From assembly GCA_947561395.2 (NCBI GenBank), contig OX387182.1, positions 45,377,949-45,441,948 on the forward strand: a DNA stretch of 64,000 nucleotides. The letters are read 5' to 3'. Positions within the stretch are counted from its first letter, which is position 1, and every line of letters begins with the position of its first letter. Made by a program: the position numbers and the translations under genes. Of the stretch, positions 18,273 through 47,009 are shown one piece after another. This DNA comes from Buxus sempervirens (taxonomy: Eukaryota > Streptophyta > Magnoliopsida > Buxales > Buxaceae). The notes beneath the pieces were generated by a model. That model was given only the letters and a program-made list of their open reading frames with translations. It did no database searches and had not been told where the DNA came from.

Positions 18273-18291
18273 CTCCCCAGCGGAGTCGCCA
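18273..18291 (-). other. Primer-binding site of the left Tat element
   Basis: On the minus strand TGGCGACTCCGCTGGGGAG directly follows the LTR A end. A near-identical site lies at 32017-32035 and a related one at 38778-38796. I do not name the tRNA with confidence. Confidence 0.7.
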
Positions 18292-21177: not shown

Positions 21178-22786
21178 CTAGACTTCCTCACTACTTTGGG
21201 ATTCATCCCTAATCACACAGATGTAGACATCTGGATTTTCTTCAGTTTTGGCTTCTTTGGTGGGAGTAGGCGGTGGGATTCCCTCAGTGGTAATCCCGAA
21301 ATTAGTGAATGATTCTTCCATATGCAATGGTACAACAGTGGCTGGCAGCAGTGCAGCAACTTGTTCATTCATTTTGAATACTTTTAGTAGGCCTTCAAGT
21401 GACCAGTTTGGGGATGGTATTTCTGTTTCCATGATCGTCTCAATGGAGTCCAAAGCAAGTGGTTCCTCCCAGAACATTTGTGCTAGCCCTTCCAGATTGT
21501 CCTCATCTCTTTTCGGTGAAGGTGGGAACTCATCACCCCATCCTTGGGTGACTACATTCTCCAGCGAATTGGTTGCCCTTAGTGCCTAATTGGTGAAGAT
21601 TTTGTACAGGTCTCTATGTATGCAGATAGGCCATTCTAGTTCCCTTCCTTCCATCTTGGCCCTCTTCAATTCAGATTGTCACCTAGAAAGTCTTGCATAA
21701 TCCTCTGGCATTGGATCATAGCCGATTCCAAATTTGACTATTTTCTCTGACACTAGTATGGCCATCTTCACTCCTTGCTTATAATAGCCCAATCCTTCTA
21801 CTGCCCGCAATCCCCAGTCAGTGCATCCAGTAGCGCCAGACACTGCATTTCTCCTTCTTCTCCTGGATCGGTGCCTCCTTTTATGTTCAGCGCCAGACAC
21901 TGCATTTCTCCTTCTTCTCCTGGATCGTTTCCTCCTTTTATGTTCAGGGACATTAACTACATTGATCATTTCCACAGCTTGGAAGTTTAGTGAAGTGGGT
22001 AGCTCATAGTCAATGTAGGGCACCCTTAGCATCTCAAATTCCCTGTGATCCTTAGCATGTACCACTATCAGCTCATTTCCAAAAATGAACCTTACCATCT
22101 TGTGTAGAGAAGAGGGTACCACCCCAGCATGATGTAACCAGGGTCGTCCAATTAGTAGGTTGAAGGAAGCATTGATGTCCATCAGTTCAAATACCAGGGT
22201 GAAGGGCTTTTCAGCTATAATTATGGTCAAAATGACCTCCCAATGGATTCCCTCTTTGAGTTGTCAAATCCTCTGACATTGTGAACGCTGGGCTTAATGA
22301 GGGATGAATGGAGCTGTAGACTATGAAAAGTCCTTATCGGACAGATGATCAGGGCCAAAACATTGTCTATCATAGCTCTTTTCACTATCTTATCACAACA
22401 CTTGATGGTGATGTACAGAGGTTCAATATGATCATACCCTTCTGGTGGAAAATCTTCGACTAAGAAAGAGATGGCCTTTGGCGCCATGATTTGGGAAATG
22501 ATAGCTTCCAATTGTTCTGGCTTGGTGTCTTCGGGTACATGTGCATCTACAAGGACCTTTATCAATGCATCTCTATGCTTGACAGAGTCCACGAGGAGAC
22601 GCATGATGGAGATTTGCGCTGGTACTTTGTTGAGCTCTTGGAAGAGGTCATACTCAGGTACGTAAATGCTATCATGTAGGTCAGTGATCTCTTCCTCATA
22701 TGCTCTACCCTTGCCTTTCTGGGTCTGTGGCTTCTCAACTGCCACTTCCTTCCCCTTTTCTCTCCTCTTTCTTTCTTCTTCTGTCT
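21178..22786 (-). pseudogene. Protease and protease-RT linker of the pol-deleted Tat element
   Basis: On the minus strand 22786-22227 encodes EEERKRREKGKEVAVEK, then LFQELNKVPAQISIMRLLVD, then the protease. The frame shifts near 22228, and 22230-21679 continues with FELMDINASFNLLIGRPW, the conserved Tat protease end. The active-site segment reads MIDNVLAL where the plus element has LIDNGSAL, so the DNG triad is DNV and the enzyme would be inactive. A 57-bp tandem duplication at 21832-21945 doubles a 19-residue segment rich in Arg. The ORF at 21178-21477 is part of the linker to the missing RT. Confidence 0.75.
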
Positions 22787-25153
22787 TGTAACGCCCCGAA
22801 CCCGAGTCAGTGCAAACCGGCACCAGACCCGAACCCGGTTCGCTACTGTAACAACCCGTATTTAGTTCAACAACCAAATCCGAGGTGTTACTGGCCCATA
22901 TCAATTACAACATCAATAACATACCAGACCAAAGAAAGCAAAATCCAATCATTTTATTAAACTATCAGAGTTGCGGAAACAAGTATGTGCGGAAGTGTAG
23001 ATCAAAATCCTCAACTAAGCATAAAGCTTAACCATCAGTCAGTAATATTAAAGTCTGGTAAAATGAACTGGTTACTATCTCTCTCTTATCTCTCTCATAC
23101 ATCAATCCAAATAAATGATAATAAACCAATAAAAAATGCTAAGTCTATAACATCAATCCACCTCAGACAAGATCTGGATAATAATAATCCTCCGGCGAAT
23201 ACTCGGCTATCTCTCCCTGGAAGTCTAAGAGATCCCCCTCTCGCGTATCAGCTGAAAAAAATGGAATAGAAGTAGGGTGAGATACGAATATCTCAGTAGG
23301 TAACACATGCATGACTAAACAGTTAATATAAGCAAAGTAACATTTCATGCACGATTAAGCAACATCTATAAATCAGGCTCGCATAATCATTTATACCATT
23401 CATGAACACAAAACAGTTTGATAAACAGTTCTAGAAATGATTTTCAGCAAGTTTTAATATAAGAACTCAATAGCCAAATCAGTAGCATAATCCATACATT
23501 GCCAGGATGTACTAAGCAGTCACATCCAACCAATATCCCAATCACATGCATCCCGCACGTGCACAATAATAATAATCAAATCAAGTGTTGTGTTTTCAGT
23601 GTCATTGTAGGACTCACAAAGATAGATAAACCTTTTGAGATGATTCTCAACCAATTGCTATACCACCGTGCGACTTAGGAGCGATGCTACTAATGATACT
23701 CAAGCCCCATGCAGCGCAGCTTAGACAAGAGCCGTAGTCACCGACTAATTGTACACGTACCCATCAGAGTTGGCATGTACCACCAGCATGCAGCACCAGA
23801 ATCAATACATGGAGATGGTCGCTTATCCACATGTACAGGGAATCATCAGCGGCTCACCGGGGTGTCCCTCCAGACATAGGACCTTCCCAGACAAACTAAC
23901 TTGCAAAGGAAGCGCGTGGCATATAGGAGTAACTCAACCCAAATGACATATCCCTCAGCTATCTAGCTACGACTATGGATCCATAACCAGCTATGCCCAC
24001 TAGACTCCAAAATTCCCTAAAGTATCATAATTCTATAAGGGTTGGTGCCTAGCGGCATATAATGGTTATATCTGTACATTTACTTCATTATTCAGTCATT
24101 CGAATTCTGAATTCTCTTTATAATGTCTTCTGATTTATAATGCCATTTAGAAGTGTTTAGATAATCAAATGGTAGTTAGGCTTTTCCAAAATCACATTTC
24201 TCATTTACCTTCAAAACTTGGCAACTAATGTCCTAAATATCTCCCTAATTTGTTTTTCTATAAAACAGGGAATTAGATAGTTTATTTTGGTCTTAAAAGA
24301 CCTTAGTTAATCATTAAAATTGTCTAAAAATAGTTTAGAGTTGAATTAGGTTCGAAATTATGAAAAATTGGAATTTCTGCTGAGAGCGCCTGGGATTGCT
24401 CAGGATCGCTCCGGGCGGTCTCCAGTCGGCGGTAGTTCAATTTCGAGCGCCAACGGTCCGTCGTCCCACGGTCCACGGCGTCCTCAATTTTATAACCAGT
24501 GCCTAGGATCGCCGATGAGCGCCGAGTCCAGTCGAGGTCGGCGATCATACAAAATCGAGCAGAAACAGTTCTAAATCATGATTTTTCTCGTCTAAACTCA
24601 TTCTAATGTATTTCTAACATGCTTAGCTAACTAAATACAACATTACATATCATAGAAACATGCGTTTGCGATTAAACAGAGGTAAATCCAATTTTAAAAC
24701 CAAAACGATGTCACCTACCTCTATACACTGATTCCTCCTTCTCTATTCTGAACAATGGCGAACCTCTAGCACTGAGAAACTCTCTGGACGATGAACGCAC
24801 GCCCAGCCCTTCCTTCTTCTTCTCCTTCTTCTCTTCTCTTTGGTCGTTCAAACAGGTTCGTCACTTGCGGCTTCAATACGAGCGAGAATACAAGTATAAA
24901 ATTAGGTTATTTCTTTATACATATATATACCCCCTGATCCTATGCATCTCCCATGCAACTCTTCTATACACCTTGCCCAATTAGAATACATACCTCGATA
25001 TCTCACGATCGGACGGTCAGATCTGGGTCTAATTTTGGATCTCCGCTAAGTTGATCACCCCCTACAATATTAAAATGTTTCTATCAATCATAACTCTCGG
25101 TAATATTATTTACTAATTTAATTTATTATTTAAGGAAAATTCGGGGTTTTACA
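22787..25153 (-). mobile_element. LTR C copy 2, solo LTR (2367 bp), inverted
   Basis: Plus-strand ends are TGTAACGCCCCG and CGGGGTTTTACA, flanked by a perfect 5-bp duplication TGTCT (22782-22786 and 25154-25158). It is the inverse of LTR C copy 1, and lies in the same orientation as its host element. It interrupts the gag-protease linker; removing it and one duplication joins PEGE directly to the EEERKRREK segment. Donor and acceptor are conserved (GT at 24717-24718, AG at 23252-23253 on the minus strand). Confidence 0.9.
23163..23251 (-). other. Putative final coding exon of LTR C, copy 2
   Basis: After the acceptor TTTTTCAG the minus strand reads ADTREGD, DFQGEI, EYSPED and YYYPDLV to TGA. 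Compared with copy 1 there is one in-frame codon loss. Eight of about eleven substitutions fall at third positions. Upstream in exon 1 the frame stays open for some 50 codons before a stop, but no ATG is present. Role unknown. Confidence 0.45.
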
Positions 25154-27254
25154 TGTCTCTCCCTCGGGTATGGGTGGTGGGTCAATGTTGACATATCGAC
25201 CAAATCGGGTGATCCGATTGACCTCAACTTCAGTGTATATGGGAGTGGTTTGGTAATAGATAGGGTCAATGGTATAAAGAAGGGGGACTGTGTGACATGT
25301 TGGGGATTCAAGGTTAAGTTTCGAAGGGTTCAAGGTGGGTGGTTCAATCGGGGTAACTGTGGGGTTTGGTATGGGAAGGTCTTTTATGTTGAAAGGATTG
25401 TTGGTGGGTGCTCCTATGGGGATGTATAGTGGTGGGGTAGGATGGGTAGATGGGTTTGTATCAGGTATGGGTGATGGAGGAGGTATTCTGTGTTGATTTC
25501 AGGGTGTAAATGTACCCAAGGGAGATGTGGCGGATTTCTTGCACTGTTTTCTTCTTCCACGACATTCACTTCTTGCCTGCTGGCCCCATAACGAAGGTGT
25601 ACTCTTATTACCTGCCCTCGTTGTCCAATCAAAATAGATGGATCAAACTGCATGCTGCTACTACTGACGTGATTCATTGCCTTATAGAGGCCTTGAAATG
25701 GTCCGGGAGGGGATTAGTGGTTACACCAGTAGCTGGGGCTAGTTCAGGTTGTGCGGGTGGACCAACCGTGAGATGCTTCTGGTCAATGAGGTCCTGGATG
25801 TCATGTCTTAGATGCCAATAGAGGTTAGTACTGTGCCCCGGTGCCCCAGAGTGGTATTCACATCGCTCTGCAGGGTTGTAACTCTTTGCCATGGTTGTTT
25901 GGGGATTTAGTGATTTCAGCTGTACATATCCTCCTTTCAAGAGTGTCGATAACAGTTCTGCTGGTGAATATGGAAGTGACGAAAACACCATTCATAGCCT
26001 TGCTTCCATCTCTTCTTTGGTTCTTCTGGGTGGTCCTTGGTATGGTGTGACCATCTGCCCCAAGTTCTGTGGTGCTGCTACTACAGGTCTCTGGGACACA
26101 TGGTATGGGTGTGTTGGCTGCATATAATTAACTGCTTGGCCCTCATTTCTTTTCGGTTCTTGCCCCTAGTTCCTGTAACCTTGACTTCCCATTGGCCTTC
26201 TCTGGGTGATACTCTGTCCACCACCATCTATCTTTCTTGCCCTTATGGCGTCTTCGATTCTATCTGCTGTTAGGATCAAATCATTGAAATTCAAAGAACT
26301 TTGCCCCAGTAACAGATTAAAGAACAATTGTCCCAGTGAGGCAATGAACAAGGACTTCATTTCCTGCTCCAGTAAAGGGGGTTGGACCAAAGTTGCCAAT
26401 TATTTCCACCTCTTAGCATAGTCTCTCACAGTTTCCTGGTTCTTCTTCGCCAACCTTTGCAGTTCAGTCCTCGTCTGCACCATTTGACTGTTCAGTTGGT
26501 ATTGTTGGATGAATACTGCTCCAAGGTCGTTCCAAGTATTAATCTTTGTTTTATCGAGACTTAGGAACCATGAGTAGGCTGCCCCAATAAGTGACCTCTG
26601 AAAGAACTGTACCATAATCTTTTGGTCCTTGACGTATTGGTACATATCACCAGAATACAACCTCAAGTGATTCAGAGGGCAGCCTGTACTATCAAACTGG
26701 TAGAGTTCCAAACATCTGAATTTAGTTGGTAGTTGTATGTCCGAGAAGAAGCAAAGATTCTCCAATGTCACTTCGTTCTGTACCATACTTGGCTGTAGCT
26801 GCTTCAGTAAATCTTCTTTCATGGCTGCCATGCGAGCCTCAAACTGGGCTTCCTGTGCCCTGTACCAGTCCTCTTCATCTTGCCCCAACTAGGCAGGCAT
26901 TGGTGCCATAGGCACAAATTGCTCTGGTTGCTGAATGGGGTAACCAGGAATGATTGTGGGTGGTGCGAGTTGTGCTACTGGCTGTAGTGGAGGTGGTGGT
27001 ACTATTGGTGCTGGGTGTGCTTGGAATGGTGGTAATGGTGCGACTGGCACTTCTGCGTGTTGTGGTGGTTGTGGTTGTTCCTGTGGAGCAACATGAATGA
27101 CCGGCTAAACTTGCTTTAAGTCACTAATTTCTGTCAGGAGAGACTGAATCAATGTTCCCATGGTTTTGACCTTTTGCGTCAGGTCATTGATAACTTGGTT
27201 CTGACTGGATTCAGCTGGATGTTGAACTGGCGGTGCCTGGTTTTCTTTATGCAT
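25154..27254 (-). pseudogene. gag of the 19-32 kb Tat element
   Basis: The start is ATG at 27254 (MHKENQAPPVQHPAES). A Pro/Gln-rich segment is followed by the capsid core (MYQYVKDQKIMVQFFQRSL, TWNDLGAVFIQQYQLN), then CEYHSGAPGHSTNLYWHLRH. The last zinc-knuckle Cys reads Tyr. In-frame stops occur at KQV/PVIHV, PA/LGQDEE, KRWK/LATL and YRN/GQEP, and the frame shifts near 25990 and 25410. The linker up to 25154 is Pro-rich and continues beyond LTR C copy 2 into the protease region. Confidence 0.8.
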
Positions 27255-28440: not shown

Positions 28441-28488
28441 GAACTTGCATTACGAGGGGTTTTGGTAGAGCTCAGTATCACGGGGTTT

Positions 28489-29195: not shown

Positions 29196-30629
29196 CTAAC
29201 TAGGTGGGTCATCATCATAATAGGACAACACGTCTTGCCTACTCCAGGAACGCAGAATCTTGTTCCGCAGACATCGGTCCTCATCCGCGCATTTGCGGAC
29301 AATTTCCATTTCTTCCTGGAGGGCTACATTAGCTTGTCTACTCTTCCGTTCTGGTTCAACATAAGCTGAATGGATACGGGAGTGGATCTCCTGCAGTTCA
29401 GCCACCCTATCTCGGTATGTGTCAGTGGACGAAACTGGAATGTCCTTTGGTATGTTGGTTTGGAGAGGTGGGACGCCGCCATGGCAAAAAGTCCTCGTCA
29501 TCCAGTGCTCATATTCTTGAAAGTGGCCCTTCGAGAATATGTCTTCCCTATGTATACGCACGGTTCTCCATTTTGCCAATAATCTTCCCCTTAACTCCTT
29601 TGTGAGTGGGCCTATCAGATCTGTTGCATCATTCACAATGGGGATTCCTTGCGGTTTCCCAAATTGCCTTAAAACCCTAATCGGATAGTAGGATACAGCA
29701 TGAGTAAGACCAATTAAGGCCAGGAATCTCCTGTCTTTGAAAGCCAGGATAGGGGAGTAATCATACTCAAAAGTTCCCCACCATCTGATATCACGATCTC
29801 CATCAATGGAGGAAATGGTTCAGCCAAGCATCTCTAGTGGGAAGGTCTGGGCATATATCTCTTTTAGACATGTGGGTGATGATGTCACGAGCTAGCCCGT
29901 ACTTGGTAGCACAAGGTTCAGCTACCCTCAGATGGTCTTGCATCCATATATGCAGGATGGAAACACAGCCCTGGAACTTTCTGACTCTGTTCTTAGCCGA
30001 TGAAGTCAAGGAGTGATACAATTGAGCTAGAATTAATGGCACGAGTTTACGTCCCAAAAGGAGTTGATCCACAACCTCCATGAGGGCCAAATTAATGGTG
30101 TCTCCCCCAATTGGAAAGAAAATCTGTGGAAGGGCCACGAGGGTGAAGGTGTCCCACCAAACACGAGGTCTTTCCTACTTTTTGTTCCTTGTCTTTTCAA
30201 CTAGGAATTTCTTGGAGACCTGTGTGACTGATGTTTCACCTCTAAAAGTCTATAATAATTGCCTTGAAAGGCCAAAGAATTTACAGGCCTCATTCTTATA
30301 ACTGTCTTTAAGGTTTGGCCTAATTGGCTCCTCGCGATGCTCAAACCGAAGGAGTAGGTCTAACTCCTCAATTGTGGATGTCAACTCCATGATCCCAAAT
30401 TGGAAAACTGAAAATTGGGCATCCCAGAATAAAAGGGATACCTGAATCATGTCCCAATTAATTGGACATTCAACAGGGACAAAGTTTGTCCCATACGGTA
30501 TTTCATTTCCCACTCAATTTTTTCGCTCCCTTGAAGTTGTTCAGTCCAAGAGCGAATCTAGGGAGTGTCCAAGGCATGTTTTTCCAATCTATGGAATCTA
30601 GTCTTTTCAGCTGATGAGGACGATGCCAT
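29196..30629 (-). pseudogene. Captured extra ORF in sense, DUF7745/PMD-like, intronless
   Basis: The probable start is ATG at 30629 (MASSSSAEKTRFHRLE), in the leader upstream of gag and in the same direction. Blocks in order are INWDMIQVSLLFWDAQFSVF and QFGIMELTSTIEELDLLLRF, then FLVEKTRNKK, then GGDTINLALMEVVDQLLLG and CVSILHIWMQDHL, then RFLALIGLTHAVSYYPIRVL, then a charged C-terminus ending at 29196. Every block aligns with the gene at 57685-59391, including FGNHEMTSTIEEVETILGL and NFLVLAGLRHAVLYLPLRVL. The intron that the 57685 gene has after CAPILQ is absent here (near 29950). Stops and at least two frameshifts make it a pseudogene. The domain name is from memory of plant families. Confidence 0.7.
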
Positions 30630-32016
30630 TGCTGTACTATCCGATTGGTGTTTCAAAATCATTTGGGGCTATTCAAAGAAGAACTAGAAATAAGTGCAAG
30701 GAATTCAAAGAAAAGCGATTAATCCGATTAAACAAACTCAACAAAGGAAAGCAATAAGGGCAAGGACTACCATCCGGTTGGAATTCTTGAAAAACCATAG
30801 AAAAAATGTCAGGTTAAATCTAACCAATGAAAAGAAATGTACCAGTGTGTGCAATCCTAAGGGTTGGTGCCTATTAAGACACAACTCCTAGATATACTTG
30901 TGTATGGAAGTACGTCCAAGTCCAAACCAGTCTCTCTTTCATTTGTCCTTTCATCTGCTCTAATTTCTGGTGTCTGACCAAAAATTTACAACTTGCCATC
31001 GAGGGCAAAAATTACATGTTATTGGAAAAGCCGAAAAATGAATCATCTTTAGGGTTATTGGGAACCCTAAAGAAGGATACAGCTTTGCTTCAAGTGGCAG
31101 GGTAGGTTAAAATACCTAATCCTAGGGTTTGTTGCCCTTGATTCGACCTGGCATGCTGTCATCTGTTCATCTGTCTGATCTTGCCAGCTTTCATCAGCCC
31201 AAAGGCTGGCTCGGACTCGAAGCACTTCCAACGGACTCGAATGGGTCAAGGCCCATGGCTCACAGGACTCAATGCATGGATCTGGGGTGGTTCCTTTGAT
31301 CAAAGTTAGGTTGGCTTCCTAATTTAGAGCTGAGGTAGCCCAAAGTCTAGGGTCCACTCAATTTGATGCAAAAAGGGTGGGGGTTGCTGCCCCTGATGGA
31401 CTCTTGGATTTTAAATTAATTGTACTCCTCTTGTATCATCATTCACAATCACATTCATCACAAAAGGTGTATCAGAACGTTGGGTGCGGAAAAGGATACA
31501 CAGTCCAAGACAAATGCCTACAAGGGTCTAAGCCAGGTCCAAGACCCCTTGCGTACCACGGCAAGAAACCAGTGGCGCTATAGGGATCCAGAAATCTTGG
31601 GGGATGCTTTAGCTTCGCTTTTCCCCGAAGATATATCACATGTGCCATTCAGTCAAATCACCCATGCGGGCTCTCTCGCGCGTGTCACCCTACGCAGTTC
31701 ATATCAAAAGCCGGTAAACATCCACAGTTTGGTGAGTGCACCTTGTGCTCGAGTGGTTTGGTGTCATGTCTAATCGGGTGAGTTGAGTTGACTCAGCTTA
31801 ACAATCTGCCTTATGTAGTAAAGTGGGGAATTTTGTATGTGAAACTGCACCAGGAAAGCTTCCAGGAAACTGGAGGGGTCACAAATGGTCTTGCTTAAGA
31901 CCCAGTTTCCATAGGCCATTTAAGTCCTTTGTGACAGAGCTTCCTAGACATGCTTTTCACAATATATTCCCTACATTATTTAGATAAGGTAGAACCATGA
32001 TCTGACTTGGTTGGTA
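30630..32016 (-). other. Leader of the 19-32 kb Tat element
   Basis: Non-coding. 30840-32016 is homologous to 16960-18272 in the left element. It separates the PBS from the captured ORF. No tRNA or other gene is seen. Confidence 0.6.
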
Positions 32017-32035
32017 GGTCCCCAGCGGAGTCGCT
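32017..32035 (-). other. Primer-binding site of the 19-32 kb element
   Basis: The minus strand reads TAGCGACTCCGCTGGGGAC next to the LTR A end. It differs by one base from the expected TGG start seen at 18273-18291. Confidence 0.65.
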
Positions 32036-32835
32036 AGGCTATGCGCACATTAGCCCGCGGGCGCACTCGATGCGAGATAAGGGGATTAGGAGTCGCCACT
32101 ACTTGACAGGGTGCAAGCAGACACCTAGATGCCTAAGGATGTCTATTAGGTGGTCTGCGCATTGAGATTCTAGGAAAAGGACCGGTTACTATCCGGGGAA
32201 GTCCATAGACACCCCGATCTGCCCCATCAAAAGACGGATCCCACGGGTCAACCTGGTTAGCCTTTAGCGAGTCAACTTATTTATCTCACCCGTCCTAAGC
32301 AAGCATGCACATTCAATTTGGTCTTTGGTGGGGACCACATGTGTGGTGTAGGTCCCATTTATTTGCTTTTGATTTTATCTTCTTTAATTTAAATGACCTA
32401 GGTTTAAATTGTGGGCCCCGTTGGAAGGCTCACAGAATGCCAAGTTGGGCTTAGAGTAAGCCCAAAGTCCAATTTGGGTTATATTGAATAACCCTCTTTT
32501 GGATTTGGCTTATTTGATTTGGGATGTGATTTAAATATGTAAAATTATTAAGTTAGTTTAGACTTTTAAAGTGAGCTTATTAGGCTTGAAGGAAGCCCAA
32601 TAGAATGGTCAGGTTGCCTTAAAGTCCACCATTTGGATGAGCTTGTGTTAGGCAAGACAGGTGTGGGCCCCGTTGGAAGGCCCACATGGAAGGATTATTG
32701 GGCCTTGGATGGGCCCAATTCTCAAGGAAGGGTCCTGGACTACTCAGAGACCAAGTTTTCTCTAATTGAGTTGGTTTAGATTGATTTTAATCTTATTATT
32801 CCCAAAAATCAGATTTCTGAATTTCTGTGACTTGC

Positions 32836-32914
32836 TTGCACAATATGTGCGGATTGGCCTTGTCTGTATAACATATGCGGACAGGGCCAATCCGCCCTAT
32901 GTATGCGGGCAGGG
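32836..32914 (-). repeat. Palindrome array, 28-bp period (LTR A, downstream of TATA)
   Basis: Three units start at 32836, 32864 and 32892 with partially preserved arms of the form (T/C)TGCA/CCGC...GCGG. The period matches the other LTR A arrays. Confidence 0.65.
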
Positions 32915-34179
32915 CCCGAGAAACCCAAGAAACCAAATTTTCAAGGGGAGTAGGGGCTCCTTCTTCCTTTACGAATCTGGTGCAAGGTGGGGTTGGGGGT
33001 GTGTCATCCGACCAACCCACAAAGGCTTCCAAATCTGATTTTAAGCACTTAAACGCTATTTGACCTATCCTAAACCCAAGGAGGAAGGGGGACTGAGGCT
33101 TGGGGCCTATCTCCCTTCACCTAAGCTTGTAAGCTTAGGATTTTCAAGGTGGGGGTGAGGTCCCCCAGTACCGCTATGGCATCCAAACTCATCCCCTTTG
33201 GCTACAAGATGGGTTGTATGGCCCGTAAGGCCTCATGCTCAAGTTAACGGCCAAACCATGATCATGCAATTACAATAGGCAATGCTCAACATAAAAAAGT
33301 ACCAAAATAGAGCACTAAATGTATTTTGAGACAATGCTGGGTGCTTCATTCAAATGTGCATGAAAAAGCTAGGAATCCAACTCTAAACAGCTACTATGGT
33401 ATACTACAATTAAGAAATCGTGTGTGTGTTGCATGGAGTATTTCCTAGGGACTAAAAGCATGCTTAGAAAGCTGAATTTAAAGCATACAGGTATGATATA
33501 AAAACAACAAACAATTAATCATGATTTTTGTACACCTATTCGAACTAGCATGACTATGGAATCAAAACACTTCAACCTACAAACAACAAGAAAATAAAGT
33601 GAACTAACTAAAGAATGGAAGTAGGGGTTTAAGGTTACATTGATCCAGAACTAGGAGGAAGAGAATTAATGGCAATATCTTAATGCTTAAGTGACATTAA
33701 ATGACCTTGAAACATCTCAAAACACCTCACCCTCTTGTACGACCATCATGGCATCTCTTACCTCATATGAACCATCTACTTGAAGGGGAAAATCACCATA
33801 ATAGAAAAGATATAAAAGAAAGCAATCTACAGAAAAATGGACTCCGAAACATGCTCCTTACTTAGCTACAAATCAAAGTATATTGTATTATGATCATGAG
33901 AAAAATGTTACCTTGATGGAGGGGAGTACTTGGTGATGCTTTGGACTCCTTGGAAGCCTTGGCAGCAAGATGAGTCCTTCCTTTTCCCCCAAGAGAGATC
34001 CTTCTTAGTTAGGATGAAGAAGTAATGAGAGTTGGTTGAGTATGGAGTGATTGGAGAGTGATTGGGGAGTGTTCTTGGACTTGGAAATGGAGAAGAGGGT
34101 GGTTTGGAGGTTAGAGTTGTAGAGAGGATGGAGAAGAACCAAAGTTGAACGACCAACCCATGCCTTGTGCTTGGGTTTG

Positions 34180-34188
34180 CTATTTATA
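34180..34188 (-). promoter_or_regulatory. TATA box of LTR A
   Basis: TATAAATAG on the minus strand (plus strand CTATTTATA). The palindrome array starts about 14 bp upstream, at 34202. The same arrangement recurs at 63878-63886. Confidence 0.7.
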
Positions 34189-34201
34189 GAACACAGGTAC
34201 A

Positions 34202-34280
34202 AATCCGCACATATTATGCGGTTTGGTCAAAACCGCATAGTATGTGCAGTTTCGCCATGCTTGCATATATTATGCGGACG
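34202..34280 (-). repeat. Palindrome array, 28-bp period (LTR A, upstream of TATA)
   Basis: Units start at 34205, 34233 and 34261, each about 17 bp with arms CCGCA/TGCGG or slightly changed forms. Two more palindromes follow upstream: perfect 10-bp arms AAAAGCGTCC (34347-34356) and GGACGCTTTT (34370-34379), and perfect 9-bp arms GACCGCATA (34430-34438) and TATGCGGTC (34442-34450). Confidence 0.8.
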
Positions 34281-34912
34281 CGACGCGTTTTTTCAACATT
34301 AATTAGGGGACAGCTCTGATGTGCACAGCGTGTCAGTTAGAGCACTAAAAGCGTCCACACATACAGTGCGGACGCTTTTCGTCCACTGCGCGGCGCGATT
34401 GGTCGCTCAAACGGCGCACTGCCAAAATTGACCGCATACTATATGCGGTCACAAACTTTTTATCCCCTTTTTGGCTTGAGTTGTCGGCCGAGGTTACTCA
34501 ACCACCCACTCAAGACCAATCAGATTCTTCCGATTTTTATTTTTTATTTATTTTAATTATTTTAAGATTTTACTAATATTATCTTTATTATGTCTTTGTT
34601 TTTGCCTTTTAGCACTTAAATTTGCCATTTATCAAGTGAAGCCCACACACTTGTCAAGCGACGGGTCCTTCTGTGCTTAATTACCATGTTGCCTTTGGGG
34701 TTGTTTTGCTCATATCTTCTCTATCTGAACTTTGATTCATGCAAACTTAATTGTGTTGGAACCGTGTCGGGATTCTCTATCCATTGGGATAGGGCATGGC
34801 AATCAATTCGAACTCAGGTAGAAAATCACCTTCTACTCCTTAGGGTTTCAACCTGTCTTTTGGGGTTTTGCTTTCTGGCTTTTTAGAGGGGTGCAAAAAT
34901 GAGGTTCTTACA

Positions 34913-35817: not shown

Positions 35818-37128
35818 TGTAAGACCCCGAAAAATTTCTTAAATAATAACATAAATTAATAATTAATATTTCTTGAGGATTTTATTGATAGAATTGATTG
35901 GTTATCGTAGGTGATATCATTGACAGCGGAGATCATGAGTTTGGCGCAGATCAAGCCGTTGGATCATGAGATATCGACGTAAGAATTTAATTTTATTGCT
36001 GCTGTGTTCTGATTGGTTGGGTGTAGTATGAGATAGCTGTGTTGTGTAGGATCATAAGGGGGAGACAAAGGGTCTTATACCCTAGTTGAATACGGTGTGT
36101 ATTCTACACATCGCATTCTGTTTTTGGTTTTGGCGTTTCGGCGACTAAGAGAGGAAACAAAGAAGAAAACCAAAGAGAAGAAGAAGAAGAAGGAGGAGAA
36201 GGGTGTCTCTGACCCTTGTTTTCTCATCGTCCTAGAGTGGTTTGAATCTGTGAAGAGATGTAATCTTTGTTGTTCAGAGGAAGAAGAAGGAGTCGCACAA
36301 ACAGGTAGGTAGCACACCTGTTTTGTCTTTCGATCGTTGTTTTTCATGTTGTTCAATCGCAATGCATGATTATACATTTTATATGTGTATAAATAGTTTG
36401 ATCTTAGTTGAATATATATGTTAGAATTGATCAGAACGAAGAAAAACTCAGATTTCGAACACTGTTTGCTGCAATTGATCAAACGCCTACTACGACCGCA
36501 TAAACGATCGTAGGCACCTGTGTATTGGATATAGCCCGCTCACCCCTCGCCTAGGCGATGGGGTAGGTGTTCAGAAAATTTAACAGGCGCCTAGTGGGAC
36601 CGCCTAGGTGATCCTTAGCTTCCATTTAAACAGAAAATTTTGGATTTTTAAACTGCAACTTAGCCAGGCCGCCTAGGCGACCTGTGTTGGGCGATTTTAA
36701 CAAAAAATGCAAATTTTAATAATTCTATATCTAATTAAAAATAAAATGATTTTAAATGGATTTTATCAATTAAATTAGATGATTTGAGATAGAATTAATT
36801 ACCAAATTACCTTGTTTTCAACAAAAATATTTAGGGATTTATTTTAGGTTTATAGTTGCCTAAATTTGAAGATAATGTTGTAGTTAAGATTTTATACTTT
36901 AAAAACTTATTGAACTGAGATATTTAATTTAAGAAATATTTATTTTATACATCATAAACTAAACTTCTACAGATAGAAACTTCAATCAGAGATTCAATCC
37001 AGATAACCCAAATTTGATAAAATTTTACAAATCAAACTTTATATGCCACTAGGCACTATTATTTTACATAAAGATAAGTCCTTAGAGATTTTGGTGTCTA
37101 GTGGGCATAGCTAAATATGGATCCATAG
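35818..37128 (+). mobile_element. LTR C copy 3, truncated
   Basis: It begins TGTAAGACCCCGAAAA and follows the LTR C order: leader exon, conserved donor (CAG/GTAGGTAGCACACC near 36305), GC-rich palindromes near 36485-36690 (for example CCCCTCGCCTAGGCGATGGG), and the block TCTAGTGGGCATAGCT. Similarity stops after GGATCCATAG at 37128, where LTR B starts. The acceptor and final exon are lost. It is clearly diverged from copies 1 and 2. Confidence 0.75.
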
Positions 37129-38775
37129 AATAAGGGAAACGACAATGGAACGGAACCCTAGGTTTTTTAGAACATCATTTGATTGATATTAATGCTATAT
37201 ATTGTTATGTATGTGATTGAAGAGTTAATTTGTACACATGCACATATTGCACTCGTTTTGTCGGAATCGGCTTGTATTTGGGATCTATTGCATTCATTGT
37301 GATAGATCTGAAATAAATAGCCCCAAACATTTCTGGGATATTTCTTATTGATTTCAAACAAATTTATTTCGAGTATTGAAGACCTCTAGGTCTAACCTCT
37401 TGGTTTTGGGCATTTTTGCTCCACTTTAGGGTTTTTGACATATTCTTTTCAATCGAAGAGGATGGTGAGCCAATTTCGTGCCCTATTTTCTCCTGGAGGT
37501 TTTTCGATACCTTTTGAAATGATCTTGATTTATATTGCACGGATTACACACACTTGATCACGGTTTTAGATTCATTTTACTTAAAAATGGGAAAACTGGA
37601 CAGCGTCTGTACCCTAACTTCGGACACTCATAACTTCATCGTTCGGATGAATTTTGGAGTGATTCTAAAGCCATGGGAAATATGAGGCTGTCTAGTTCAT
37701 GTCGGTAAAATTTCATCAATTTCTATGAAGTAGAGTTTTGACACCATTCAGTCGAAGTTGATAGGTCAGTTCAGGCCAGATTGCTGAACCTGTCACTTTG
37801 ACTGAGCGCCATGTGTTCGTTTGAAGTTTGATTTGAGTGATTTTTATTTCTGGATTCTCCTTTGTGAGTCTACTTTTAAATCCAGTTAGTTTCACAATTT
37901 TTTGATTTCATGTTTGTCAAGGGTAAATGATTTACTTAGAACTGCTCAACAACATATTTCTGGGTTAATCTGTGATCTTCGGGGCCTGTTCGGAAGGTCA
38001 CTCAAGGCACATCCGGATAAATTTTTGTATGAGGCTAGTTTCATTTGAAATATGGCCCTACATACTTTATTCATGCAAAAATTCACGGATTTATATGAAG
38101 CCAATTCTTCCAAATGAATTTCCAAAGTTGCCCACTTGTTACTTTTACCGATTTCCAACAGCAGATTTCAAAGGAGCATAACTCCTAGGGTTTTAACCGG
38201 ATTTGATTGAAAATTTGCATGAGTCTTCTATTTATCATAATCTTTCAAATGGATTTGGTTTGATTCAATTTAAATTAGATTTGAATGATTTCAAGACAAA
38301 TGGCTCTATCTTTTACCAAATTTTCCAGATTTGTCTCAACTTGGTTTTGTTCAAGTTTTGCTTTGATTTCAATTTAATGGCGATGTCCTAGAAGTGATAC
38401 TAACATAAAAGAGGATCTGGAATTCATTGGATTTCTCATGTGGAAATATCATACATTTGTTTAATCCTTTTTCAAGGTTTTTGATTATTTTAGCAAGCTT
38501 TCTTATTTTTGAGCATGAACAAAACTTGGCTACCACCTTGTGTGGGTGAATGGGGGTACTTAACACCTTCCCCCGTTCATAATCTAATCCCCTTACCTAT
38601 CTCTCGATTTTATTTTCAAGTAGAGTTATTTTTACTCTAGATTTGTCTTTTTGTTTATTTTAATGATTTTTAGTGCCCATTCACACCTAAAATTGAATGG
38701 TGGCAACTCTCCCATTTTTGTTGAGCCCATGTGATGATGAAGGGAATCATCTAGGTGATTTTTCCATGTCTCACA
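37129..38775 (+). repeat. LTR B, 5' LTR of the plus-strand Tat element, left end missing
   Basis: It ends CATGTCTCACA two bases before the PBS. It is an inverted counterpart of 49927-51370. The U3 part with TGTATACACC start, palindromes and TATA box is missing, so this copy has lost its promoter. Confidence 0.8.
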
Positions 38776-38777
38776 AC

Positions 38778-38796
38778 TGGCAACTCTGCTGGGGAC
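38778..38796 (+). other. Primer-binding site of the plus-strand Tat element
   Basis: TGGCAACTCTGCTGGGGAC follows the LTR end after two bases and resembles the sites at 18273-18291 and 32017-32035. It fixes the plus orientation of the element. Confidence 0.7.
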
Positions 38797-39059
38797 GTGT
38801 GGATTTAAGCTATGTTTTGTGTTTGTTCATGTTTTGTTCTTATTTGTGAATGCTTGATGTTTTGGAAATTTTATGTTGAACTTGCTTGATGTATCTAGAT
38901 GTTGTTTTGTATGATTAGAAGAATCATGAAGATATGGCATATATGTGGTGCTTGATTATGCCTAGAAATTTGTTTATGGAGAGCCTATCCCATAACATGA
39001 TTTTGGTGTATTTGATGATAACATACTTTGCTTTGGGGATTTAATGTCATATCTGGATG

Positions 39060-39610
39060 ATGGAAATTAACAGCATGAAATCAGTAAATTTGGTAGGGAT
39101 TTTTGGGGGTTTTCAAGCATTTTTTCCCCAATTAAAACACTTCTTGTACCCTATTTTAGTTGCTGGATTTTTTAGGCTTAGATGTGGATGTGAATAATAC
39201 ATGTTGAACATAAAGAATTAAGAGCAAAAAATCTGGAAATTCAGTAGGTATTTTTCTTTGGGTTTTCATGCATATTTTCCCAAGCTAAAAGCTTTTGTAC
39301 CATGTTATTAGTTGCTGAATTTTAGGCTTAAAATTTGGGTATGAATAATGCACTTTGAGCATGAAAATGAGAACCATGAAACCCAGAATTCAGTAGATGT
39401 TTTGAGGGGGTTTCAAGCATGTTTTCCCCGGTTAAATGCTTCTTGTACAATACATCTAATTGCTGTATTTTTAGGCTTCCATTTGGGCATGAATAAGGCA
39501 CTTTGAGCATGAAAAAAAGAGCATGAAATCTGGAAATTATGGGGACATTTTTGAGTTTTTCAAGTATGCTTTTCATGGTTAATTGTTGTTGTACAATGTG
39601 TTAACATGTT
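39060..39610 (+). repeat. About four tandem repeats of roughly 140 bp
   Basis: Each unit has the order AGCATGAAA, a TCAAGCAT(G/T)TTTTCCC-like core, CTTGTAC and TTTAGGCTT, ending near a TGAATAA(T/G)GCACTT-like stretch. Units are diverged by substitutions and small gaps. Confidence 0.7.
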
Positions 39611-40533
39611 TTGGGTATCACTTTTTTGTATATAATGGTCATTAGTATGTTCGGGTGTTTATTATCTTGTGCTTGTGTTTTTAATTCCAATATGATTGTC
39701 ATATTTGCCTTGGCTTGAAATTGTATGCATAGCTAAAAAAAGAGTGGCAAGGGTCTGGGACGTTGTGAATGCACCTTTAATTTTAAATACACTTAAGCAC
39801 TTTAAACTCTTTGCACAGCCTACCCATTACCTATAGAAAGTTGAACCTGAATGTGTGTAGCTTGGCGCAACGAGGTCGATACTTAGGAAAGCAAAAGTCA
39901 AAACATTTACCTTAGAATTTGAGTCAATGATGTGATGACAATGGGATCTGTGATTCGATTCTGGGCATCACTAGACTTGAGTTCTAAGTTGCCAATTAAG
40001 CCAAAACCCAAAAACCATACGCTTGAAGTTGGAGAAACACGTTTTCAGCTAAAAGTAAACAATTACGTTTGGGGAATTGGGTGTAAATGTGGGAAGGCCG
40101 TTTGCATATTTCATAGGCCAAAGTATAATATGAATACCATATTGAAGGTAACACAAGGTGGCAAGGTAAAGCCAATTTTTTTTATTATCTTCATGTAAAT
40201 TAAAAGCCATGGTGTCCATATGGTTGGGATGAAATTTTTCCCAAAAATGTTTGTAGCCTAAGGTTGGTGTAACCCATAGGAAAAGTCTCTAACTCTGCTT
40301 AGAAGTTATCTTACCCAAAGTCCATGCAAGAGGCAACCAAGAGTACAAGATCCATGAATCAGTGTCTAACTGTCAAAGGGGCATGTACCCTTATGAATGT
40401 TCATATATTTTGCAAGTGTAGTGTCAAAGTCCAATTGGAGACTATTTTTAGAGGCCAAGTCAAGGTGAAAATCAAGTGGGAATGAAAATAACATGATCTA
40501 ATGAAAAAATGAGTCAAAAAGGGCCATTTCGGC

Positions 40534-40677
40534 ATTAACCGACAACTCAGGTTGGTTAAACAGAGTTTAATTCTTATCCGACGTATGTCATCGGTAAAAG
40601 GCTTTTATGCTTGTAGCCGATTATTTATGTCGGATACAATAAGGCATAGCCTTAGCCGACATGTCATGTCGGATACA
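40534..40677 (+). repeat. Palindrome array, 39-bp period (leader)
   Basis: Four 27-bp palindromic units start at 40534, 40573, 40612 and 40651, exactly 39 bp apart. Arms are variants of TATCCGAC/GTCGGATA. The first unit matches the reverse complement of unit 4 in the LTR B array at 52229-52255. Relative to element sense the order is therefore the same in both elements. Confidence 0.85.
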
Positions 40678-40949
40678 GCCAAGAAATGTACAAATTGATT
40701 TTTCATCACAAATTTTTAGAATAAAATGCCTAAAACATTGTGAATAATCTTTAGGCACCCCAAGGAGAGTATGAAAAGATAATTCAAAAAAAAAAAAAGA
40801 AATTTTTTTTTTTTAAGAATTTCACTTAATTTTGAAACACAAATCTACCCTCTCCCTCAAAATACATTAAAGGGGCCAAGGTGTCATATTTCTGGATACC
40901 AACTCAACTCAAACAAGTTTCAATCAAACTTTTAAACTTGAAAACTGAG

Positions 40950-41889
40950 AATATTAAAAAAAAAAAAACCCTTGTTTGGTCACGAGAACCAATCAAATCA
41001 AAAATTTGTGGGACACTTGGAAGCCCTAGAATATTCCAAAAAAAAAAAAACCTTTGTTTGGTCATGAGAACCAATCAAATAAAAAATTTATGGGACACTT
41101 GGAAGCCCTATAATATTCCAAGAAACCTTTGTTTGGTCACGAGTACCAATCAAATCAAAATTTTGTGGGACACTTGGAAGCCCTAGAATACTCCAAAAAA
41201 AAAAAAAACCGTTGGTTGGTCATTTTCTCCAATCAAATAAAAATTTTGTGGGAAACTTGGAAGCCCTAGAATATTCCAAAAACCTTTGTTTGGTCACGAG
41301 AACCAATCAAATAAAAGATTTGTGGGACACTTGGAAGCCCTAGAATATTCCAAGAAACCTTTGTTTGGTCACGAGAACCAATCAAATCAAAAATTTGTGG
41401 GACACTTGGAAGCCCTAGAATATTACAAGAAACCTTTGTTTGGTCACAAGAACCAATCAAATCAAAAATTTGTGGGACACTTGGAAGCCCTAGAATATTC
41501 CAAGAAACTTTGTTTGGTCATGAGAACCAATCAAATAAAAATTTTGTGGGACACTTGGAAGCCCTAGAATATTCCAAAAAAACCTTTGTTTGGTCACGAG
41601 AACCAATCAAATAAAAAATTTGTGGGACACTTGAAAGCCCTAGAATATTCCAAAAAAACCTTTGTTTGGTCACGAGAACCAATCAAATAAAAAATTTGTG
41701 GGACACTTGGAAGTCCTAGAATATTCCAAAAAAACCTTTGTTTGGTCACGAGAACCAATCAAATCAAAAATTTGTAGGACACTTGGAAGCCCTAGAATAT
41801 TCCAAAAAAAAAAAAACCTTTGGTTGGTCATTTTCTCCAATCAAATCAAAAATTTGTGGGACACTTGGAAGCCCTAAAATATTCGAACA
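40950..41889 (+). repeat. Tandem array, 12 units of about 76 bp
   Basis: Each unit has TTTGGTCACGAGAACCAATC, then TTTGTGGGACACTTGGAAGC, then AATATTCC and an A-run of variable length. Units 4 (near 41215) and 12 (near 41823) share a variant (TTGGTTGGTCATTTTCTCC), which suggests a higher-order duplication. Repeating peptides in this stretch are a by-product. Confidence 0.9.
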
Positions 41890-42058
41890 AAAAAAAAAGA
41901 AGTAAATAAATCCAGAGTTGTGTTCATCTAACTCACTTATCTACATTTATAGGTGTGACTAGGATTAAATGGGAGCTGACATGTTTCTTTGTTTTTTCTT
42001 TCCCCAGGTACACATATTTGCAATCATTGCTCCTGTGACCAGATCCAAAGCTCGAGCA

Positions 42059-44161
42059 ATGAATCCTGAAGAGAACCAAGCTCAAGCTATTGTCCTCGAT
42101 CAGGACTTTCCTCAGCTGCAAGAGCAAGTGGCTGGACTAGCCAAGATGCTAGGAGACCTACTGGCGGCTCAGGCCCAGGCCCAAAACCAAGCCTCAACTT
42201 CCCATCAAGCACCACCACCTCAAGCCTACATTCCGCCTCCAGCTCAACCCATAGCTGAACCCATTTCTGAACCAGTCCTCGAACCTATTCTGATCAAGGA
42301 AAATATTGTGGAATATGAGAAAGAGATGGAAAAGGAAAGAGCCACGAAAGAGATGGAAAGGAAACTCCTACATAAGATAGAGAGGATTCAGGAAGAACTC
42401 AAGGAGGTGAAGGGGGGAAACAGTTATGGGGGTACCACCTTTGATGACTTATGCATATACCCGGATGTATGCCTACCAGCGAAATTCAAATGGCCAGACT
42501 TTGACAAATATGATGGCCCGGGCTGCCCAATGAGCCACCTGAAGTTATACTGCAGGGCTTTGTGCCAGTTTGGCCGGGATGACGGCATATTGATCTAACT
42601 CTTCCAGAGGAGTTTGACGGGAGCAGCTCTGAGGTTGTTTGCCACGGTGGACCATGGAAGGATCTGAAGGTGGAAAGACTTGGCCGATGCTTTTCTGGAC
42701 TAGTACAAGTTCAACTCGGAGATTGTGCCAGACCGGTACGACATGATGAGAATGAGCAAGGGAAAAAAGGAAACTGTGCAGCAATATGCCAAGAGGTGGA
42801 AAGAGGCTGCCTCCCAGGTCAGGCCGCCTATGTTGGAGCCTGGGATGATTTCAACGTTCATAAGCACATTTGGGCGGCCCTTCTATAATCATTTGGTGGG
42901 TCAGATTACCACCAATTTTACAGCCCTGGTACAGGTGGCTGACCAGATCGAGGAAGGGGTCAGGTTAGGAAAACCCATTGATTACTCCGCTCTGGCCAGA
43001 CAATTGGATTCCTCAACTTCCCTGGCACAGAAGAAGGGAACTGAGTTTAAGAAGAACGGGGCAGGAAAAGAAGGAGAAGTAAACTTGGTATAGGCTCCTC
43101 CTCCCAAGAAACCACTCCATGTCAATATTTTTGCACCCCAGCAGGCCCAGCAGTCATATCAGACCCCTTTCAATGTCAATTTCTCCCCCTCCGTGCCTGC
43201 AAATCAGAGGAGGGCTTTCACTAAGGAAGAGAAGGATGCCTGGATGGCAGCAAGGAGGAGCAGAGTTTTTACCCCTCTTCCCATATCTCTTTCCCAACTG
43301 TTACCAACCCTGCTGAAAGGGGAATATGTGACCTTGAAGGAGCCCAACCCAAATGCCTTGAAGGGGAAGAATTTTGATCCAGTAGTCACTTGTGACTTTC
43401 ACATGGGTGCACAAGGGCACTCTACAGACACTTGCTGGGTTCTGAAGCACGCGGTTCAGGATCTATTAGATCAGAAAGCCCTGGTCTTTAATACTGCTGC
43501 ACCTACCCCGTCAGGAAATGATATTGGGCAAAACCCTCTGCCTTATCACAATGGGGCAGGCCCGTCCAACTCCATCACTGCCATATCCTCCACGAGAAGG
43601 GCCTTTGACCCATCTCAATTGGTAGCTCCCGTGGGGACCTCGGTCAAGGTCCATTTCATTCAAGAGAGAGAAGAGGAGGAGGTCAATGTCATCTCCCAGA
43701 AAAATGATCATGCTGCTAAAGATATTAGCTTCTCCTTGAACCAGGTCTCTTCCCTCATGGCCCAAATAAACATTGCAAGGCCTCCTTTGGTCTTCAATTG
43801 CAGTCCACCCACTTGTTCTCCATCCCAGACATCAAAAACTCCCTTGGTCATCCAATGTGACCCCACCACTGCTTCCATCACTTCTTCTGTTCCAAAAAGA
43901 TCCAAGCTCCAGCCCTTGGTTGTAAATGTTCCGCCGGTCCACAATGTTCATAAACTGGCTCCTACATCCCGGTCCCAACTCAAACCGCTTGTGGTCCATG
44001 TCGCCAAACTAGCCTATTCTGAGGCAGCTGTACAATGGAATTACAGCAAGGGGGTCACGGCTACGGTTCCGGTGGTCAAGAACCAGAACCAGGAGGAGGT
44101 AAACCTCATGACGAGGTCAGGGAGATGTGCGGGAGGAGAAGAGAAAGAAAAAGAAACATAA
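42059..44161 (+). pseudogene. gag of the plus-strand Tat element
   Basis: I choose ATG at 42059 (MNPEENQAQAIVLDQDFP) because the 30 codons before it overlap leader sequence. In order: Gln/Ala- and Pro-rich N-terminus, a charged coiled-coil-like segment (KEMEKERATKEMERKLLHKI), capsid (CPMSHLKLYCRALCQFGRDD, then SKGKKETVQQYAKRWKEAA), then the zinc-knuckle-like CDFHMGAQGHSTDTCWVLKH. One frame is kept throughout but is broken by stops after DGILI (42597), at GRI/RWK, at LD/YKF and after VNLV (43091). Each looks like a C-to-T change in CAA, CGA or CAG. Gag would form particles. Confidence 0.85.
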
Positions 44162-45723
44162 GTGGAGAGAGAGAAAAAAGAAACAAAAGAAAAAAGAAAA
44201 TTGAAAGGAAAAACCAAAGTAGGAGAAGACATCCCCCAGGATGTAGGAAATGAGGCTGCAGACCTCATAAAAATAATAAAAAAAAGTGAATTCAATCTTG
44301 TCGATCAGTTGAATAAAGTCCCGGCCTAGATTTCAATACTGGGACTTTCGCTGAATTCAGAAAAGCACAGGGACGTATTATTAAGGGTGCTTCAGAGTGC
44401 ACATGTATCCCAGACTATTGATCCTAACCAATTAGGCAAAATGGTTGGTCAAATCTTGTCACACAATGTGATAAGTTTCTCCAAAGGTGAGATAAACCCA
44501 GGTGGATGCTACCATGTTGACCCTTTGCACATCACAGTGCTTTGTAAGGGCAGTATGGTGGCACAGGTTCTAATTGACAATGGGTCGGCTTTAAATGTCT
44601 GCCCATTAATCACTTTTGCCAAACTTGGTCTGGATCAATCAAAGATCAAGCAGAATGAGAGGATTATGAGGGTTTTTGATAGCTCTAAGACACACTCCTT
44701 ATGGGAGATTGAACTGCCGGTCACAATTGGACCGAATATCTTCAGCATCACATTTGAAGTGATGGATATCCCCTCAGCCTTCAATCTGCTCCTAGGGAGG
44801 TCGTGGATACATTCGGCTAGGGCAATACCATCCACGCTCCACCAAAGGGTGATAACTATTCTAGCTGAGAATTTGGTGCCTCCCATTGTGTCACCTGACG
44901 TACCCTTCATAAATGTGGATTTAACTGTCGACAAGATTGCATTCCACTCGTTTTAATTTGAAACGGTCAATTTCATACTTGGAGGTGTGAGAGAAAAGAA
45001 GAGAAAGGGACTACTACGGAGAAAATGGTAAGGAAAGTGATGGAAAAATACCACTTCCACCCGGGGAAAGGCCTGGGAATTAATTTGCAGGGGATGTTGG
45101 AACCAATCAAGGCAAAGAATCTGGTCCCTAAAGTAGGGTTGGGATTTAAACCCTGAGGATGGAGAAGGATGAAGCAGGAAGAAGGAGAGAAGAGAAGCAG
45201 ATGAAAATTCCCTCATTTAAGGGAAAATTTTCCTAAACCCTCATATACAATCCAACTGTCTCCTCCTATGGATCAATCCAAACCTCCATATCGAAATGTC
45301 AACCCATTCCAAAGGCCTTCGGTTTCAACTCTGTAACCCTATAACCCATCTCCTACACTTGAAACAATGGGCGGGCTTGGGCCACAGCCAAAGCAGCAGA
45401 CGGACTTCTCCAAAGATGTCGGGGCTTTCTTCGCCATGACTGAAGGCGAAAGGACTAAAGACGATAAGGAGCTACCGTTCATTGATTGGGCAGCAGTAAG
45501 GATTCTAGATGAGGTCATATCTGGACTGGGTCCCGTAGCAGAAAAGGGCAGTATAACTCATCCAGTGATGATGGCATCGGATTCAGAGTTTGAGGAGCAG
45601 GCTTTCCCCATTTCCCCCCACTCCTGAAAAATGTATTTTGAACAATTGGGAGGAGACTCCCCTTACCTTTGAAGCAGTGTTTGTTTGACAAACTGACGCG
45701 GCTTCCAAAAAATAACTGCATTA
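44162..45723 (+). pseudogene. Protease and linker of the plus-strand Tat element
   Basis: A Lys/Glu-rich linker leads to LVDQLNKVPA and the protease over 44387-44956. The active site reads VLIDNGSALNVCP (DNG triad), and the domain ends FEVMDIPSAFNLLLGRSW. This domain looks catalytically intact. Downstream, near 45030-45155, a Gly-rich stretch (HFHPGKGLGINLQGML, PKVGLGFKP) resembles the G-patch-like segment of Tat elements. The frame then changes before RT. In the minus element at 21-22 kb the same site is DNV. Confidence 0.8.
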
Positions 45724-47009
45724 GTGGAATGTCATTTCCCTGAAGGTTCTAATGAGCCTTCGTCTTCAGGGGAAGTATGTTTAGAAGGCTCACAAAAAAC
45801 CCAAAAAGATTTTTCTAATTTTTCTAGAAAATTTAATTTTTTCAAAAAAGTCCAAACTAATTATGAACCATATAAGCAAACAGAGTTAGATCAAGTTGAA
45901 TATGACTTCGACCTTGAGCTCGACTTTGACCTAATGGGGATCGAAGAAGAAACCGAGGTCAAAGAAGAAGACCCTCCAAAGGAAATTGAATATCAGTTGG
46001 AGTGTCATGAAAGGGGTGTGCAACCTAATATTGAGGAGACCATTTCAATAAATCTTGGGACCGAAGATGACCCAAAAATAGTGAAGATTAGGGCATGCTT
46101 GTCTGATGTGCAGCGTGATGAAATGACACGGTTCTTAGCAGACTATAAGGATGTGTTCGCTAGGTCGTATCGGGACATACCGGGATTGGACACTGACATG
46201 GTGGTGCACAAGTTGCCAATTTTGCTAGGAGTCAAGCCAATTAAGCAGAAGCTGAGAAGATTGAAACCTGAATGGACCCTGAAGGTCAAGGACAAAGTGG
46301 TTAAGCAATTCCAAGCAGGATTTTTAGCAGTCTCCACGTACCCTGAGTGTCTCGCAAATATAGTACCAGTACCAAAGGACAGAAAAGTCAAAATGTGCGT
46401 GGACTACAGAGATCTGAACAAGGCAAGCCCAAAGGATGATTTTCCGCTTCCACACATCGACATTCTAGTCGATAATACTATGGTACATAGCCTATTTTTG
46501 TTCATGGATGGCTTCTTTGGGTACAATCAGATCAAGATGGCTAAGGAAGATCAAGAGAAAACAGTGTTCATCACACCTTGAGGCACTTTCCACTATACTG
46601 TCATGCCATTTAGGTTCAAGAATGCTAGGGCAACATACCAACAGGCCATGACAGCACTATTCCATGACATGATCCACGAAGAGATGGAGGTCTATGTGGA
46701 CGATATGATTGCCAAATCATGCAAAGAAGAGGATCACTTGGTTAATTTGAAGAAGGTGTTCGATTGACTCAGGAAGTACAATTTACGGCTTAACCTGGCT
46801 AAATGCATCTTTGGGGTTACATCAGGGAAATGGCTGGGGTTCATTGTAAGCAGAAAAGGAATTGAAATTGACCCGGCTAAAGCAAAGGCAATTATTGAAA
46901 TGCCATCACCCAGAACAGAGAAGGAGGTTAGGGGTTTCTTGGAAGAATTCAATATATAAGCCGGTTCATAGCATAGCTCATTGCTATCTGTGAACCGATT
47001 TTCAAGCTT
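45724..47009 (+). pseudogene. Reverse transcriptase of the plus-strand Tat element
   Basis: The acidic N-terminal linker is followed by RDIPGLDTDMVVHKLPI, KMCVDYRDLNKASPKDDFPL and FMDGFFGYNQIKMA. The catalytic box VYVDDMIAKS is intact (YVDD at 46693-46704). Stops interrupt TP/GTFHYTVMPF (46579-46581) and VFD/LRKYN (about 46764), and a one-base loss near 46941 shifts the frame before the RNase H. RT copies the element RNA into DNA in the particle. Confidence 0.9.

Follow-up and report, generated by a model that had tools for sequence, protein, structure and literature searches.

Ty3/gypsy retrotransposons are already known to carry genes encoding plant mobile domain (PMD) proteins (PMC5418596, PMC6317226, PMC9289625), and two related host genes, MAIN and MAIL1, function in silencing (PMC5418596). 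PMD-A clades are encoded by Gypsy elements, which bear such genes across angiosperms (Ikeda et al. 2017, PMC5418596), and in Ogre elements, whose extra open reading frames (ORFs) have been classed by position and orientation, a PMD was found in 57% of elements (Neumann et al. 2019, PMC6317226). Here, we describe Ty3/gypsy-borne PMD genes of Buxus sempervirens, starting from 64,000 nucleotides of contig OX387182.1 (assembly GCA_947561395.2, forward-strand positions 45,377,949 to 45,441,948; in the following, the window). The window contains an intronless PMD gene in sense upstream of gag (S copy) and, in another element, an intron-bearing gene in antisense downstream of pol (PMDa, or A copy), next to a second antisense gene with several introns (PMDx). 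We consider it probable that a split PMD gene gave rise to two accessory genes of such elements, the antisense copies keeping their introns and the sense family having lost the intron via RNA.

In the literature available to us, partly as excerpts, no report was found of intron-bearing or multi-intron antisense PMD genes in long terminal repeat (LTR) elements. The word "intron" is absent from the main text of Ikeda et al. (PMC5418596), and the direction of descent is left fully open there. The accessible account of Ogre (PMC6317226) differs from the present case in that no antisense intron-bearing PMD pair was found described in it, and Ogre's own intron lies in sense, between PROT and reverse transcriptase (RT). 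Grande, RIRE2, and Retand likewise carry antisense extra ORFs (aORFs) (PMC7264820, PMC11963269), and gene23 of Grande is driven by a promoter of its own and encodes a nuclear product (PMC7264820). However, these aORFs encode other domains (TRP28, SMC), "intron" does not appear in the accessible portions of PMC7264820 and PMC11963269, and the review among them describes the origin of most aORFs as unknown. Two more distant systems share single features with the genes described here. HBZ of human T-cell leukemia virus type 1 is an antisense retroviral gene with spliced transcripts, but these start in the 3' LTR of a human retrovirus, and we claim no sequence kinship (PMC1459196). In Penelope elements introns survive retrotransposition, for which an antisense template was proposed by the authors; however, these are not LTR elements and are set apart in that work from all other retrotransposon types (PMC3846280).

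A preliminary description of the window had placed the S copy in sense upstream of gag and its relative in antisense downstream of pol, and both placements were borne out (Table 1). The S copy is followed on the same minus strand by gag (26888-26232), nucleocapsid (NC, 26021-25546), and protease (PRO, 22904-22066) pieces, and PMDa lies on the plus strand, opposite to the two RNase H domains and the integrase of the element that we call element C (62365-60455). The assertion that both genes belong to the same family stands insofar as both encode PMD/DUF7745 proteins, but they reside in different element families. The two proteins are just 31-34% identical and fall into separate groups, and on these grounds we rejected the idea that a single captured copy had recently moved from antisense into sense. 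Both genes are decayed in the window. The S region consists of two ORFs of 207 and 123 amino acids, not of a single one, the reading frame switches between two frames, and there are three in-frame stops; its PMD/DUF7745 matches are weak and fragmentary, with one of two pieces exceeding the Pfam cut-off (DUF7745, 28.2). In PMDa, the reading is disrupted immediately 3' of the intron by a TAG and a frame shift of one base, and a further stop occurs at 59065. Other copies are better preserved: in L010, DUF7745 scored 91.1 bits (cut-off 26) and PMD 79.9 (cut-off 34.9), and in L034, exon 1 of PMDx scored 65.8 for PMD and exon 1 of PMDa 75.5 for DUF7745. A database search for relatives of the S protein returned two proteins, both unnamed, and no solved structure was found for it by sequence. 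The intron that follows CAPILQ in PMDa is missing at the matching point of the S copy, as had been noted: coding is gapless over the junction 29950/29949, with ATC CTG CAT before and ATA TGG after it.

This contrast is not confined to the window, and the sampled copies appear to sort into two old clades, S and A. A search of the 677-Mb genome assembly with PF24924 gave at least 118 scored matches, a lower bound, from 5751 candidates. Thirty loci from this search comprised 25 S-type loci, four A-type loci, and one S-like locus (L002), to which 19 A-type (L033-L035, L040-L055) and three S-type copies (L102-L104) were added. All 24 A-type copies examined, the window included, have the intron (GT in 24, AG in 22; length 81 to 234 nt), whereas all 30 S-type copies examined, the window and L002 included, lack it. 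Absence was called by pattern at 25 of 26 loci and by a one-frame match across the site in L003, with three more loci and the window completing the set. The S gene lies in sense upstream of gag in 22 of 23 tested contexts (19/20, 2/2, and the window), L002 being the exception, and the A gene is antisense to integrase in 22 of 24 (16/18, L019 and L023, 3/3, and the window); in the two exceptions, L050 and L054, no integrase occurs within the sampled stretch. Translation straight across the A intron was rejected as a rule, since 17 of 21 copies contain stops in it or have a frame-breaking length. Among the S-type loci, L022 (stretch L068) has a PRO-like piece on the opposite strand beside the S gene, with gag in sense, and two pairs of S genes occur in the same orientation, 16.5 kb apart (L014/L015, C8) and 17.6 kb apart (L005/L017, C1), as if in tandem elements.

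Passage of introns through retrotransposition is best seen in two young A-type insertions, on C4 and C9, which are 94.9% identical over 5.3 kb, introns included. Their LTR pairs are 99.64% (C4) and 99.49% (C9) identical over 1682 and 1753 aligned bases, respectively, and they are bordered by 5-bp target duplications, TTTAT (C4) and CAAGT (C9, boundary determined by eye). Both contain all five conserved introns, the four of PMDx and that of PMDa. It might be argued that the antisense genes stand outside the element life cycle and that their intron-bearing copies spread by DNA duplication or as nested passengers; antisense genes with introns resemble host genes, and farther out, remnants of older members of this element family occur in the flanks of both insertions. 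We regard this as very improbable, because each of the two copies sits within an insertion that has a target duplication and near-identical LTRs, the 500-bp flanks show no side-for-side match, and A genes opposite to integrase recur across many chromosomes; for the C4/C9 pair, DNA duplication was rejected. Sequence comparison thus shows that the antisense genes retain their introns when the element is copied, and copying via the genomic RNA of the element accounts for this. The antisense half of the explanation offered in the preliminary description, which attributed the intron contrast to retrotransposition, is thereby supported, and its other half, loss of the intron in sense, is plausible.

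The companion gene PMDx is located between the 3' LTR of element C and PMDa, on the strand of PMDa and hence also antisense. Its four introns are of the GT-AG type and occupy identical sites in all four copies read across this stretch (the window and three others), with exon 2 constant at 159 nt and exon 3 measuring 390 or 393 nt. PMDx pieces were present in nine of 12 elements examined: three of three elements fetched at length, five of eight further A-type loci, and the window. In the three long-fetched elements, none of which lies on the chromosome of the window, PMDx is followed by PMDa, after which come integrase, RNase H, and RT on the opposite strand. Short repeats with GTATCCGGCATA-like units flank PMDx on both sides (57400-57560 and 52109-52264).

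Regarding the ancestry of the shared intron, an alignment that was blind to introns places the intron of A and the first one of PMDx after the same column, with Pfam coordinates of about 180 and 182, the second extrapolated by 18 residues. Because this site is common to A and the distant PMDx, the intron looks ancestral. The alignment across it is gapless, as expected of an exact loss that leaves the neighboring codons intact. In the trees, S and A group together to the exclusion of two other DUF7745 proteins with support 100, and each forms a clade (A, 98 and 99/99; S, L002 included, 99 and 94/96). The first tree leaves out A_L048 and A_L040, which contain many unknown residues, and L019 and L055 are absent from alignment and tree. 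One of four trees, rooted on P0001/P0002, leaves the fork between S and A open, so that A may lie within S; without the outgroup, the S/A split has full support. The simplest reading would be that an old intron was lost once, and exactly, en route to S. A gain of the A and PMDx introns within the elements after capture, with S showing the original intronless state, might accommodate both the varying length of the A intron and the open fork in the rooted tree, but it needs the remote A and PMDx each to have gained a phase-0 intron after one and the same column, and we consider it improbable.

Locus L002 (G000:C21:4718575-4722525) bears on the question of where the S lineage lost its intron. Its PMD/DUF7745 reading frame is S-like and intact, lacks introns, and spans 457 codons. 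No gag was found in the 4 kb sampled downstream, a stretch preceded by 400 unread bases, and neighboring ORFs look like a host gene, with a possible resemblance to exostosin-type enzymes. L002 falls in or beside clade S. The S genes may have been captured from an already intronless host gene, in which case orientation would be irrelevant to them and only antisense retention would be due to retrotransposition. The setting of L002 would fit such a capture, and a topology keeping the S elements apart from L002 was not rejected in the approximately unbiased (AU) test (p 0.349, 0.352, 0.289); the best trees, however, nest L002 among the S element genes, as expected of a domesticated element gene, albeit with low support (64 to 85). 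We hold this alternative to be possible but doubtful; L002 itself may be an element gene that became domesticated, or it may be related to the source gene. The preliminary description had named descent of the sense copy from a naturally intronless gene as the result that would overturn its reading; the position of L002 in or beside S is compatible with such a descent.

The exons of all three genes are mostly under purifying selection, as shown by the ratios of nonsynonymous to synonymous substitution rates (dN/dS). Fourteen A pairs were compared, one of which was saturated (L033-L034); L019 and L055 are not in this set. For PMDa exon 1, dN/dS was 0.00-0.14 in 12 of 13 usable pairs and 0.30 in L051-L048, and for exon 2 it was 0.05-0.11 in five and 0.19-0.28 in three of the 13. 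Exons 2-3 of PMDx gave 0.09-0.19 in every one of the 21 pairs formed by seven copies, although L033 and L096 among these contain stops. For S, values of 0.06-0.16 were obtained in the five usable of eight pairs; in the unusable ones (L001-L010, L001-L003, and L022-L010), the slices were probably out of register.

Returning to the loss of the intron via RNA in the sense family and its retention in antisense, we envisage that a PMD gene with a phase-0 intron at one site became two Ty3/gypsy accessory genes. In the family of element C and the neighboring element B, the gene lies in antisense between pol and the 3' LTR, beside the multi-intron PMDx. Genomic RNA that is reverse transcribed would hold only its reverse complement, in which introns should be invisible to the spliceosome, and the unspliced introns would pass into each new element copy. 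The antisense genes themselves would be expressed from their own transcripts, which would be spliced. In the other family, the gene is oriented in sense and precedes gag on the 3' side of the 5' LTR; an intron at this place in the genomic RNA would be spliced out and be lost from the complementary DNA, and the copies examined lack it exactly.

Several observations weigh against this proposal. As S and A form one clade each, the link between orientation and intron state amounts to a single contrast, and the rooted tree mentioned above would allow A to lie within S. The intron may have been lost before capture, as L002 hints. Ogre retains a partly spliced intron in sense (PMC6317226), and the earlier wording that sense introns are "removed with each RNA cycle" is accordingly too strong. 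The sampled copies are the best-scoring candidates and are thus biased toward conserved ones. In four of 21 A copies (L034, 234 nt; L035, 201 nt; L049, 147 nt; L052, 87 nt), the intron is stop-free and its length is a multiple of three, so that translation could continue across it. Exon 2 of PMDa gave dN/dS of 0.45-0.72 in five of 13 pairs, each including a copy with an exon-2 stop. No PMDx piece was found in three of eight further A-type loci, with 0.9 kb sampled at each. Finally, a TATA motif about 100 bp 5' of the PMDa start was present in four of eight copies, the start being ambiguous in two; it may faintly hint at a promoter of PMDa's own, comparable to that of gene23 in Grande (PMC7264820).

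The elements concerned can be classified in part. Element C, on the minus strand, extends at least from 62365 to 49926, and its pol is 87% identical to that of element B. Between RT_RNaseH and integrase, element C contains a second RNase H (RVT_3, aRH) scoring 73.8 bits; in element B, this domain scored 19.8 bits, slightly below the cut-off of 21.6 for that piece. An additional RNase H in this position defines the Tat clade (PMC6317226), and because of this feature we assign B and C to the Tat clade of Ty3/gypsy (Ogre/Retand type). LTRs with 5-bp target duplications, a further Tat character, were found in the two related insertions. Tandem arrays occur upstream of gag in element B (40888-41891, 75 bp) and in the LTR of element C (51299-51618, 160 bp). 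In the S-bearing element, the S copy starts about 230 bp past the inner edge of the LTR-like repeat 30859-34912, a second copy of which lies at 16967-19016 and matches in pieces with 68-92% identity. Similarity to the RT of the window revealed no RT following PRO. Tandem arrays with units of about 58, 104, and 108 bp lie between the S gene and gag (27666-28797), and an inverted repeat pair of 2.4 kb and 80% identity (5393-7766 and 22786-25153) has its second arm between NC and PRO.

Table 1. Features of the S-bearing element and of elements B and C, in window coordinates
Feature	Position	Strand	Remarks
gag, NC, and PRO pieces of the S-bearing element	22066..26888	-	
S copy, decayed PMD/DUF7745 gene, intronless	29196..30629	-	sense, between LTR-like repeat and gag
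LTR-like repeat upstream of S copy, including ~2.1 kb extra stretch	30859..34912	-	
Element B, of the family of C	37127..49919	+	ends where the LTR of C starts; 5' LTR ~37127-38775
Element C 3' LTR	49926..51537	-	78-84% to element B 5' LTR, inverted
PMDx, second antisense PMD gene of element C	54670..57220	+	54670 is the open-frame start; start codon not established
PMDx introns	55606-55680, 55840-55915, 56306-56384, 56535-56612	+	GT-AG, boundaries by eye
Putative fifth PMDx intron	near 56832-56905	+	boundaries by eye
PMDa exon 1	57685..58392	+	antisense to element C
PMDa intron, GT-AG, after CAPILQ	58393..58498	+	
PMDa exon 2 and tail, decayed	58499..59391	+	
Element C pol (RNase H, RVT_3 RNase H, integrase)	59813..62365	-	opposite to PMDa and PMDx

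Retrotransposition is usually recognized by the absence of introns. In the present case, LTR elements have spread genes with at least five introns, as seen in the two recent insertions examined, and they can do so, we propose, because these genes face the opposite direction. As a guess, the encoded PMD proteins perhaps act on the host silencing pathway of MAIN and MAIL1 or in the nucleus. Tentatively, one may go further and suppose that an element lineage keeps a selected two-gene antisense PMD cassette, the introns of which, five or more, are copied along with it, and that this cassette serves as an accessory module for counter-silencing or in the nucleus, and that antisense placement lets an LTR element carry split genes over the long term. 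Intron positions link the PMD genes of the elements with one another and might also connect them with MAIN and MAIL1 of the host. If the cassette reading is true, these positions could tell whether host PMD genes descended from elements or the reverse.
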